DNA of 64,000 nt from Dongia mobilis (GTDB lineage Bacteria > Pseudomonadota > Alphaproteobacteria > Dongiales > Dongiaceae), in the NCBI RefSeq assembly GCF_004363235.1, contig NZ_SNYW01000009.1:248001-312000 (forward strand), in the 5' to 3' direction. The position numbers and the translations under genes are program-made. Below the pieces are notes generated by a model. That model was not told the DNA's origin, searched no databases, and saw only the letters and a program-made list of their open reading frames with translations. Position 1 is the first letter of the stretch; every line of letters starts with the position of its first letter. Of this stretch, positions 29,294-33,595 are shown in pieces.

Positions 29294-30103
29294 ATGACTC
29301 GCATTCTGGGCATCGATTTCAGCGGTGCCAGCGACGCGGGCGCCAGGATCTGGATCGCCGCCGGTCGGCGCGAGGATGGCCCGCTGTCAGTCACGGATTG
29401 CCGGCCGGCCATGCAGCTGCCCGGTGGCGCCAGGGCACCCGGCATCGCCCTTTCCGCCCTCCGCACCCATGTGCTGACCGATGCCGACACGATCGCCGGC
29501 TGCGACTTCCCTTTCAGCCTGCCGGCCGATCTGGTGGCGGCAAAAGATTGGCGCCGCTTCGCCCTGGATTTTATCAATCGCTACCCCACGCCGCGGGACT
29601 TTCATGATCTCTGCCATGTGGCGACCGGCGGGGTCGAAACCAAGCGGCGCACTGATCGCGAGGACAGGACTCCTTTCAATTCCTTCAACCTGCGCCTTTA
29701 TCGCCAGACCTGGTGGGGTATCGGCCATCTGCTGGCGCCATTGGTCGCGGCGGGACAGGCGGCCGTCTGGCCGCAGATGCCGAAACGCGCCGGGCGGCCG
29801 CTGCTGATCGAGGTCTGCGCCGCCTGCTCGCTGATCCGCCTTGACCACTATCCCAGCTATAAGGGGACGACACCTGCGCACCGCAAGGCACGGGCCGGCA
29901 TCCTCGATCTCCTGGTGGCATCACATTGGCTGGCAGGGCCGAAACGATCGCTGCGGGCGAGCCTGCTCGACAATACCGGCGGCGATGCGCTCGACGCGGT
30001 GATCGGTGCCGTTGCCGTCAACCGCGCCCTAGCGCTCGGCCATCTCGATCGCAAGCCGGACAAGATCGACCGCATCGAGGGGCGCGTCTTCTACACGTTG
30101 TGA
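29294..30103 (+). CDS. DUF429-family protein, predicted RNase H-like nuclease fold
   Basis: 269 residues. Begins ILGIDFSGASDAGARIWIA, the first strand of an RNase H-like fold with its acidic residue, and has GCDFPFSLP and GDALDAVIGAVAVNRAL near the end, where another acidic pair sits. This pattern fits DUF429, a predicted nuclease-like family with no fixed role. It starts ten bases after the cinA stop with a weak ribosome site, so it may depend on read-through from ispDF-cinA. Its stop lies ten bases from the end of the convergent riboswitch-controlled gene. Confidence 0.75.
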   Translation: MTRILGIDFSGASDAGARIWIAAGRREDGPLSVTDCRPAMQLPGGARAPGIALSALRTHVLTDADTIAGCDFPFSLPADLVAAKDWRRFALDFINRYPTPRDFHDLCHVATGGVETKRRTDREDRTPFNSFNLRLYRQTWWGIGHLLAPLVAAGQAAVWPQMPKRAGRPLLIEVCAACSLIRLDHYPSYKGTTPAHRKARAGILDLLVASHWLAGPKRSLRASLLDNTGGDALDAVIGAVAVNRALALGHLDRKPDKIDRIEGRVFYTL

Positions 30104-30113
30104 CATGCAGCCT

Positions 30114-30416
30114 TCAATTCAATGCGGCGCGCCGCCGGCCGGTCACCATCTGTGCCAGACGCGCGCGCGGATATGCAGCCACGGTCTCGACCAGTTTCAT
30201 GAGCGGAGCCGAGATGCCGGCCTGCTGCTGGCCAAGCACCAGGCGGGCAGCGTCGGCGGGGTCGATGCCGGCGGGCAAGCCCATCACCCAGGCCAGCAGT
30301 TTCATTTGCACGGGTTCATGGGCAACGGCATCAAGTTGCCGCAGCGCGTCGCAATACTGCTCGGCCCGCAGCGCGGCGAAATCAGTGGTCGTGGAATCAG
30401 TCCGGGAAGCAATCAT
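30114..30416 (-). CDS. Unrecognised ~100-residue protein controlled by a cobalamin riboswitch
   Basis: I do not recognise a family. ATG 30416 is preceded by a perfect GGAGG at 30425-30429 with eight-base spacing; an upstream ATG at 30461 touches the riboswitch 3' end and is less likely. The protein is predicted soluble and helical, with one cysteine, no membrane segment and no metal-binding cluster, so it is not CbtB-like. Conserved-looking patches are EQYCDALRQLDAVAHEPVQMKLLAWVMGLP and PADAARLVLGQQQAGISAP. It is the only gene on this strand after the riboswitch before convergent genes, so it appears to be a single-gene B12-responsive unit. Confidence 0.65.
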   Translation of the reverse strand: MIASRTDSTTTDFAALRAEQYCDALRQLDAVAHEPVQMKLLAWVMGLPAGIDPADAARLVLGQQQAGISAPLMKLVETVAAYPRARLAQMVTGRRRAALN

Positions 30417-30463
30417 CGTCGCAACCTCCACCAGGCCCACCGCCCGGTCGTTTGGGTTCATCG

Positions 30464-30655
30464 GATGATGGCAGGTCTCCTGGCTCGCGGGTCAAAGCGC
30501 TCCATCGGCCTTCCCGGGGCTGGTTTGCTCCAGTGGCTCGAATGATGGCGCGCTCACCGCTTACAGTTGCGGGGGCAGCCGCGGTTTCGCACCGCGTTCC
30601 CTATTAATCCCGGTCGGCAACGGCCACGCCGCCCCGAATCCGAGAACCATCGTTT
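30464..30655 (-). ncRNA. Cobalamin (adenosylcobalamin-class) riboswitch
   Basis: Read on the minus strand, the element shows the conserved blocks in order: AATAGGGAAC with flanking GGTGCGAAACC, the GCTGCCCCCGCAACTGTAAGCG core, GAGCCACTGG (B12 box region), CCCCGGGAAGGC, and the closing CGCGAGCCAGGAGACCTGCC. Outer bases GATGGT near 30651-30646 can pair with GCCATC near 30472-30467 as P1. The control target on the same strand is the small gene starting at 30416, whose GGAGG lies about 35 bases beyond the element; translational control is therefore plausible. B12 binding usually lowers expression. Confidence 0.93.
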
Positions 30656-30753
30656 CGGAAACTACGCCGCCACGCAGCGAAAGGCAAAGCGCGAAGGATC
30701 GCGTGCCGATTGCCCCCGAAATCCTTCTCAAAGCGACCATTTCTGTTCCCTGC

Positions 30754-30835: not shown

Positions 30836-32011
30836 ATGTTGAAACCGCTGCAGCGGCCGTCGCGGCCGCTTTTCTCGTCGGGTCCCTGCGCCAAGCGCCC
30901 CGGCTGGACCCCGCAAAATCTAGATATCTCGGTTCTCGGTCGCTCGCACCGCTCGAAGCCCGGCAAGGACAAGCTGGCCGAGGTGATCGAACGCTCGAAG
31001 CGCCTGCTTGGCATCCCGGCTGCCTATCGACTTGGCATCGTGCCCGCCTCGGACACCGGTGCCGTCGAAATGGCCCTCTGGTCCCTGCTTGGACCCAATC
31101 CCATCACGGTCCTCGCCTTCGAAAGCTTCAGCGACGGCTGGGCCAGCGACATCGTCAACGAACTGCATTTGCCGACCAAGATCCGCCGCGCCGGCTACGG
31201 CGGCCTGCCCGATCTCGGCGGGATCGACAAGGCGGATGACATCGTGTTCGCCTGGAACGGAACCACTTCGGGCGTGCGGGTGCCCCATGGCGACTGGATC
31301 GCCGACGACCGCACCGGCCTCACCATCTGCGATGCCACCTCGGCCGTCTTTGCGACGGACCTGCCCTGGCACAAGCTCGATGTCGTCACCTGGTCCTGGC
31401 AGAAGGTGCTGGGCGGCGAAGGCGGCCATGGCATGATTGCCCTCTCGCCCCGCGCCGTGGACAGGCTGACCACTTACCAGCCGGCCTGGCCGCTGCCGAA
31501 AATCTTCCGCCTCGCCAAGGGCGGCAAGCTGATCGAAGGTATCTTCAAGGGCGAGACCATCAACACGCCCTCGATGCTCTGCGTCGAAGACCAGATCGAT
31601 GCCCTGTGCTGGGCGGAATCCGTGGGTGGACTGGGCGGTCTCATTGCCCGCTCCGAGGCCAATCTCCGCCTCGTCGCTGATTGGGTGGCGGCCTCCGACT
31701 GGGCGGATTTCCTGGCCGAAGATCCAACCACGCGCTCCAACACTTCGGTTTGCCTCAAGATCACCGATTCCTGGTTCCTGGCACAGGACCAGGAAGGGCA
31801 GGAACGGGTCGCGAAGGAGATCACCGTTCTGCTCGACAAGGAAGCCGCCGGGCTGGATGTCGGCGCCTATCGCGATGCGCCGCCGGGCCTGCGCATCTGG
31901 TGCGGCGCCACGGTCGAACATGGCGATATCGAAACCCTGCTGCCCTGGCTCGACTGGGCTTATGCCACCGTCAAGCACGCGCATGCGACACCGGTCCTGA
32001 GCGGGAACTGA
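30836..32011 (+). CDS. serC: Phosphoserine aminotransferase SerC
   Basis: 391 residues, class V PLP aminotransferase of the alphaproteobacterial SerC type. It starts near-canonically with [17 protein letters not shown], contains [15 protein letters not shown], and the PLP lysine is in [19 protein letters not shown]. It converts 3-phosphohydroxypyruvate and glutamate to phosphoserine. ATG 30836 lies just after GGAAGG in the leader hairpin. Three bases separate it from serA, so the two steps of serine synthesis form one operon. Confidence 0.96.
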
Positions 32012-32014
32012 ATC

Positions 32015-33595
32015 ATGGTAAAAGTCCTCATCTCCGACGAACTCTCACCCGCCGCCGTGAAAATCTTCCAGGAGCGCGGCATCGACGTCACCGAAAAGAT
32101 CGGCCTGAAGCCGAAGGAACTGGCCGCCATCATCGGTGATTTCGACGGCCTCGCCGTGCGTTCCGCCAGCAAGGTGACGGCCGATGTGCTGGCCGCCGCT
32201 GCGAAGCTGAAGGTGGTGGGTCGCGCCGGCATCGGCGTCGACAATATCGACGTGAAGGCCGCGACCGCGCGCGGCATCTGCGTCATGAACACGCCCTTCG
32301 GCAACAACATCACCACGGCCGAGCACTCCGTCGCGATGATGATGGCGCTGGCGCGCCACATCCCCGAGGCGAACAGCTCGACCCATCAGGGCAAATGGGA
32401 AAAATCCCGTTTTGTCGGCGTCGAGCTTTACGCCAAGACCCTGGGGCTGGTCGGCTGCGGCAATATCGGCTCGATCGTCGCCGACCGCGCACAGGGCCTC
32501 AAGATGAAGGTGATCGCCTATGACCCCTTCCTCTCGCCCGAGCGCGCGCTCGACCTCGGCGTCGAGAAGGTCGACCTGGACGCGCTGCTGGCGCGGGCCG
32601 ATTTCATCTCGCTGCACACGCCATTGACCGACCAGACGCGCAACCTGATCGACGCAGCGGCGCTCGCCAAATGCAGGGACGGCGTGCGCATCATCAATTG
32701 CGCCCGCGGCGGCCTCGTCGTCGAGGCCGATCTGAAGGCGGCCCTCGACAGCGGCAAGGTGGCCGGTGCCGCCCTCGACGTCTTTCCGGTGGAACCGGCG
32801 ACCGAAAACATCCTGTTCGGCCACCCGAACGTCGTCTGCACCCCGCATCTCGGTGCCTCCTCGACCGAGGCGCAGCTCAACGTCGCCATCCAGGTGGCCG
32901 AGCAGATGTCGGACTTCCTGCTGCACGGCGCCGTCACCAACGCCCTCAACATGGCCTCTGTCACGGTCGAGGAGGCGCCGAAACTGCGCCCCTATATGCG
33001 GCTCGCCGACCAGCTGGGCGCCTTTGCCGGCCAGGCCACCGAGACGGGCATCCGCAAGGTGACGGTCGAATACGAAGGTCATGTGGCATCGCTCAACACG
33101 CGGCCGCTGACCGCCCTCATCCTGCAGGGGCTGCTGAAGCCTCTGCTGGCCGACAGCGTCAACATGGTCAATGCACCGCTCGTCGCCAAGGAGCGCAACA
33201 TCGACCTGACCGAGGCGAAGCACGAGCGCGAGGGCGACTATCATACCCTCATCCGCCTCACCGTCGAGACCGAACGCTGGTCGCGCTCGATCGCCGGCAC
33301 CCTCTTCGCCGACCAGCGCCCCCGTGTGGTCGACATCAAGGGTATCAAGATCGACGCCGAACTGGGCCCGCACATGCTCTATGTGACCAACGACGACAAG
33401 CCGGGTTTCATCGGCCGGCTGGGCACGCTGCTGGGTGACAATGGGATCAACATCGCCACTTTTGCGCTAGGCCGCGCCGCCCAGGGTGGCGACGCCATCG
33501 CCCTGGTCGAGATCGATGGCCCGCTGCCGCCGGAAATTCTGCGGGCAGTCCAGGCCCTGCCCCAGGTGCAGCAGGCCAAGGCGCTGGTTTTCTGA
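32015..33595 (+). CDS. serA: D-3-phosphoglycerate dehydrogenase SerA
   Basis: 526 residues, the long form. The substrate/NAD domains show VGRAGIGVDNIDVKAAT, GLVGCGNIGSIVADRAQGL, ISLHTPLTDQTRNLID, and NCARGGLVVEADL. An intervening ASB domain follows, and a C-terminal ACT domain (MLYVTNDDKPGFIGRLGTLLGDNGINIATFALGR) gives serine feedback in relatives. It oxidises 3-phosphoglycerate to 3-phosphohydroxypyruvate. Encoded directly after serC; a weak terminator-like hairpin follows. Confidence 0.97.
   Translation: MVKVLISDELSPAAVKIFQERGIDVTEKIGLKPKELAAIIGDFDGLAVRSASKVTADVLAAAAKLKVVGRAGIGVDNIDVKAATARGICVMNTPFGNNITTAEHSVAMMMALARHIPEANSSTHQGKWEKSRFVGVELYAKTLGLVGCGNIGSIVADRAQGLKMKVIAYDPFLSPERALDLGVEKVDLDALLARADFISLHTPLTDQTRNLIDAAALAKCRDGVRIINCARGGLVVEADLKAALDSGKVAGAALDVFPVEPATENILFGHPNVVCTPHLGASSTEAQLNVAIQVAEQMSDFLLHGAVTNALNMASVTVEEAPKLRPYMRLADQLGAFAGQATETGIRKVTVEYEGHVASLNTRPLTALILQGLLKPLLADSVNMVNAPLVAKERNIDLTEAKHEREGDYHTLIRLTVETERWSRSIAGTLFADQRPRVVDIKGIKIDAELGPHMLYVTNDDKPGFIGRLGTLLGDNGINIATFALGRAAQGGDAIALVEIDGPLPPEILRAVQALPQVQQAKALVF

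Follow-up and report, generated by a model that had tools for sequence, protein, structure and literature searches.

The window analysed in this work is a stretch of 64,000 nucleotides from a contig of Dongia mobilis. On its minus strand, a match to the cobalamin riboswitch aptamer (RF00174) at 30453-30666 precedes an open reading frame for a small protein of 100 amino acids (P0001), located at 30114-30416 with the stop codon included. The Rfam covariance model matched this region from 30666 to 30453 (-) with a score of 129 bits (cmscan, E 4.1e-32), against a curated cut-off of 31.5 bits, and the match covered positions 1-189 of the 189 positions of the model. A previous inspection of the same DNA, hereafter the sequence-only reading, had described a complete-looking B12 riboswitch on this strand and had named the Rfam Cobalamin model as a check; the full-length match agrees with this description and with the position proposed, the extent being slightly longer by Rfam.

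The aptamer sequence is strongly kept across six aligned Dongia loci, and the GCUGCCCCCGCAACUGUAA segment bearing the C-rich L5 loop (30561-30579, minus strand) is invariant among the Dongia loci and present in nearly all the riboswitch-linked loci described below. Beyond the aptamer, the sequence predicts a P13-like expression-platform hairpin (CCGGGC-GGUGG-GCCUGG, 30431-30447, minus strand), whose 3' arm lies one base from a Shine-Dalgarno (SD) sequence, GGAGG (30425-30429, minus strand), itself found 8 nt before the ATG. The hairpin is kept in Dongia, where C/T variation preserves the pairing, and (G/A)GAGG occurs at the equivalent position in the Dongia loci. Its loop is partly complementary to L5: the L13-like loop of Dongia reads GGYGG, which pairs with L5 but for a single mismatch. 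A CGGGCGGGGUGCCCGG-type hairpin precedes the SD in most other riboswitch-linked loci, and in most linked loci the hairpin loop is GGGG, complementary to CCCC in L5. The GGAGG sits 24-28 nt beyond the end of the Rfam match, so that the value of about 35 bases given in the sequence-only reading was approximate. The spacing of aptamer, hairpin, SD and start codon is constant over the six Dongia loci (offset 35-37 nt). From this layout, the riboswitch appears to lie in the 5' leader of the small gene, with a platform predicted to be able to hide the SD. A promoter scan revealed no sigma-70-type site upstream of the riboswitch-gene unit, and no terminator-like site was found by scanning just downstream of the small gene.

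The small gene runs from an ATG at 30416 to a stop codon at 30114 (-). Homologues of its translation product were detected by single-sequence search in 9 of the 17 genomes of the order-level group (one family). Pairwise dN/dS values among six Dongia orthologues ranged from 0.13 to 0.27 (pairs with finite dS); several dS values exceeded 1, hence the ratios are rough, and all of them indicate purifying selection. On sequence evidence the ORF at 30114-30416 (-) is a real gene, because of these homologues, of the dN/dS values and of the constant offset of SD and start codon in the six Dongia loci. A convergent ORF on the plus strand (29294-30103), for which no Pfam match was obtained, stops about 10 nt from the stop codon of the small gene. 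There is therefore no further minus-strand gene after the small gene, as the sequence-only reading had pointed out. This convergent ORF was absent beside the small gene in the other Dongia loci examined. Rfam matched only one further element of the window, a serC leader (RF00517, 30786-30837 (+)), followed by serC-like and serA-like genes (30836-33595 (+)) that diverge from the riboswitch unit; four more Dongia loci likewise have serC beside this unit.

Conservation of the riboswitch-gene pair

RF00174 was found directly upstream of the small gene in all nine carriers of the order-level group (9/9), and in the six class-level carriers tested outside the family (6/6). The covariance model confirmed 20 of 20 loci, plus 2 further loci from wider searches, while a profile search of contigs returned five loci, including Dongia mobilis, Dongia sp. 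MAGs and Rhodospirillaceae MAGs. After two further orders had been searched, the total reached 37 genomes from six family-level groups (f1, f105, f131, f155, f176 and f182) in which the gene lies directly 3' of the riboswitch, 34 of them established by covariance model and three by an nhmmer nucleotide profile built from the confirmed ones. The distance from aptamer to ATG is 34-61 nt in most linked loci, usually 35-50 nt, and most of them show both the SD and the hairpin. Since the linked genomes carry only 2-7 cobalamin riboswitches each, chance linkage is negligible. Homologues are thus also preceded by cobalamin riboswitches, the second check named in the sequence-only reading.

In the genera of the family that lack the gene, no trace of it was seen at the retrieved riboswitch loci (up to 30 loci examined), and a tblastn search of plasmids found no homologue. 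A seventh class-level match (L025), short, weak and without RF00174, was set aside as a likely false positive, as were two FliD-like matches (L103 and L104). Weak Rhodobacterales-like matches (L099-L102, L155 and L156, E about 1e-4) lie just after a glnE-like gene and end in RRGGWR-type tails; they may belong to a remote offshoot of the family.

The linkage expected from the sequence-only reading holds in the 37 genomes but not in a further group of 19 relatives, which lack a riboswitch at the small gene (18 checked by covariance model). RF00174 occurs elsewhere in 17 of these 19 genomes, indicating that B12 riboswitches were retained there, though not at the small gene. On the protein tree, 18 of the 19 unlinked relatives cluster together (SH-aLRT 92), and the presence or absence of the riboswitch requires a minimum of 2 state changes on this quick tree of short proteins, whose several long branches cannot tell gain from loss. 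A similar SAM-methyltransferase gene precedes the linked gene in one genus (g257 of f155) and the unlinked gene in f178 and f29, which suggests, as far as gene order can tell, that the two kinds of copy occupy the same ancestral locus, where the riboswitch would have been gained or lost. In L068, L074, L076 and L088, compared with L080, L082 and L098, the gene follows the SAM-methyltransferase gene with and without an intervening riboswitch, respectively. Given the 19 relatives without riboswitch, the biochemical activity of the protein need not be B12-specific. One congener (G004) has no riboswitch-linked copy and carries a divergent, riboswitch-free homologue (L150) at another locus.

Features of the small protein

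Neither the window protein nor distant members matched any family of Pfam, NCBIfam or PADLOC, in agreement with the sequence-only reading, which had placed the protein in no known cobalamin family. The search of PHROGs gave one sub-threshold match only (E 0.083), which was disregarded, and the profile compared with PDB sequences gave only a chance-level match (E 0.57). Particular identities could be rejected on these grounds. The protein is neither CbtA nor CbtB (no match to PF09490, PF09489 or any other Pfam family), nor a B12-independent isozyme such as MetE (no Pfam or NCBIfam match). A CobW/MeaB-type GTPase chaperone was likewise discarded: Pfam detects no P-loop GTPase domain, and the structural model of this 100 aa protein is all-helical.

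The family shares a conserved core, L-x-W-x-x-x-LP-x-x-x-DP-x-x-AA, and W43, L47, P53, A56 and A57 are invariant across 24 aligned sequences. The profile of the riboswitch-linked family (W-LP-DP-AA core) matches the window protein, as it must, since the sequence of this protein was among those used to build the profiles; the relatives, however, were found by single-sequence search. No Cys or His position is invariant in the 24-sequence alignment, which speaks against a metal carrier. The C-terminus is rich in K/R in most members (3-10 K/R among the last 22 residues), and over its full length the protein has a net charge close to zero. In the metE-linked member (L065), the C-terminus is acidic and not basic. 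The near-zero net charge, together with this acidic tail, weakens a nucleic-acid-binding reading. An AlphaFold2 model built from six sequences is all-helical, with five helices, and of moderate confidence (pLDDT 70, pTM 0.53). Comparison of this moderate-confidence model with known folds gave no Foldseek match below E 2.4 and a best VIA-align Z of 4.4. With such confidence and no clear fold match, the structure supports no particular activity. Visual inspection of the sequence revealed no obvious transmembrane stretch, and the protein, of about 100 aa, is best read as soluble and all-helical.

Genomic context and possible roles

In a survey of 197 genomes, the targets of cobalamin riboswitches were genes for B12 biosynthesis, transport of B12 or its precursors, cobalt transport and isozymes of B12-dependent enzymes (PMC3766115). 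In contrast with these surveyed targets, the first target gene in the window falls in none of the four functional groups. The riboswitch itself resembles other RF00174 elements in its full-length aptamer, its C-rich L5 and its SD-adjacent hairpin with a partly complementary loop, and in the host genome (G000) this element is also found ahead of known B12 genes: the four other cobalamin riboswitches are located before cbiM, a Peripla_BP_2 gene (B12-type binding protein), a cobG-like gene and cobU-cobW. No description of the family was found in the main texts of open-licence papers. The novelty lies in the target family, conserved and so far undescribed, whereas the riboswitch is of a known kind. 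The proposal of the sequence-only reading that the gene encodes a new B12-related small protein is well supported by the riboswitch linkage and by the lack of any known family; any of the roles it suggested (chaperone, trafficking or regulatory partner) may apply.

From the established behaviour of this riboswitch class we infer, for the riboswitch of the window, its ligand, its OFF direction and a kissing-loop step. When B12 is plentiful, the aptamer would bind it, and in this bound state the L5 loop would pair with that of the hairpin immediately 3' of the aptamer. This loop pairing would hold the hairpin shut and mask the adjacent GGAGG. When B12 is scarce, the hairpin would open and the small protein would be made. 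We consider it probable that the locus is a self-contained B12-controlled unit in which an adenosylcobalamin-type riboswitch represses a single conserved small protein at the level of translation.

The single target gene assumed in the sequence-only reading stands for the window, whereas in some relatives the small gene heads a unit shared with B12 genes (cbtBA, cobW or metE). No conserved gene lies downstream in Dongia and at many other linked loci, and the 3' neighbours differ among Dongia. In G397, and apparently also in G225, the next gene downstream has an MCP domain (chemotaxis-receptor-like). G491 has a Peripla_BP_2/FecCD/ABC operon, headed by a riboswitch, immediately upstream of the small gene. 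At two loci, a manganese riboswitch (RF00080; L056 1855-2014, L060 1836-1999) comes after the small gene and before a membrane protein gene.

Some of these contexts point to a role beside a known B12 function. CbtAB has been predicted to transport cobalt (PMC2667541), and three genomes from two genera (G001, G013 and G014) have a riboswitch-cbtB-cbtA unit with the small gene as its first gene, directly before cbtB. In addition, the cobalt system of the host, CbiM, is led by a cobalamin riboswitch and so is presumably also B12-repressed. The small protein could then be an accessory of cobalt acquisition, working with CbtAB or a successor and aiding cobalt import for B12 synthesis. We regard this as unlikely, as the small protein occurs in genomes without either transporter protein: G002, G006 and the host itself, in which neither CbtA nor CbtB was found anywhere in the genome, carry the gene, under purifying selection, and it is therefore independent of CbtAB. 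Conversely, four sampled genera with CbtAB lack the small gene, while in three congeners (G003, G005 and G007), which unlike the host do have CbtAB, the cbtAB genes lie far away, behind a separate riboswitch. The lack of conserved Cys or His also speaks against this role. Also quite unlikely is a role as partner or chaperone to a B12 enzyme or to a B12-independent substitute, for instance in methionine synthesis, through which the protein would aid the switch away from B12. Such a role would account for the position of the gene between riboswitch and metE in G428 (gap to metE of 16-20 nt, same orientation) and for the cobW gene that follows it in G247, but the metE link occurs in one genome only, where the small protein is the most divergent member, and Pfam reveals no GTPase or corrinoid-binding domain.

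Other explanations would deny the protein any role of its own. In Mycobacterium tuberculosis, uORFs adjoin B12 riboswitches (metE, ppe2) (PMC11260477), and a similar layout is found in four relatives (G001, G013, G014 and G428), where a short ORF of 25-29 aa starts at the SD-proximal ATG between the riboswitch and the small gene and either stops at the start of the latter or runs into it (L012, L013, L014 and L065), with cbtBA or metE following. Such an arrangement would be compatible with the small gene being a mere leader or spacer that couples the riboswitch to downstream genes, its peptide having no role. This is very improbable for a protein that, unlike the M. tuberculosis uORFs, has about 100 aa, is conserved across families with its amino acid sequence under purifying selection, and mostly lacks a downstream partner gene; most linked copies, that of the window included, have no conserved gene after them, and those of Dongia have differing 3' neighbours. 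Antisense-acting riboswitches have reportedly been observed, and the end of the convergent ORF about 10 nt from the stop codon of the small gene would allow the minus-strand transcript to control the convergent gene at 29294-30103, the small ORF being incidental. That the riboswitch-gene pair is kept in other Dongia without the convergent ORF beside it, and that the small ORF is under purifying selection, makes this extremely improbable.

We tentatively propose that the small protein is an adaptor or regulator that may bind another macromolecule in the low-B12 response, this being the most likely role when compared with a transporter, an enzyme or a metal carrier. As the unit is compact and predicted to be monocistronic in Dongia, its regulation and the phenotype of a deletion are directly testable. 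The linkage in six groups, often to a free-standing gene, is strong evidence for an unnamed further component of the low-B12 response. It is possible, if still doubtful, that the whole family is a dedicated B12-starvation effector in Alphaproteobacteria, silenced by B12 through the riboswitch, that would bind a macromolecule and reshape metabolism or expression. If true, a B12-starvation effector would represent a functional class beyond synthesis, transport and isozyme replacement.
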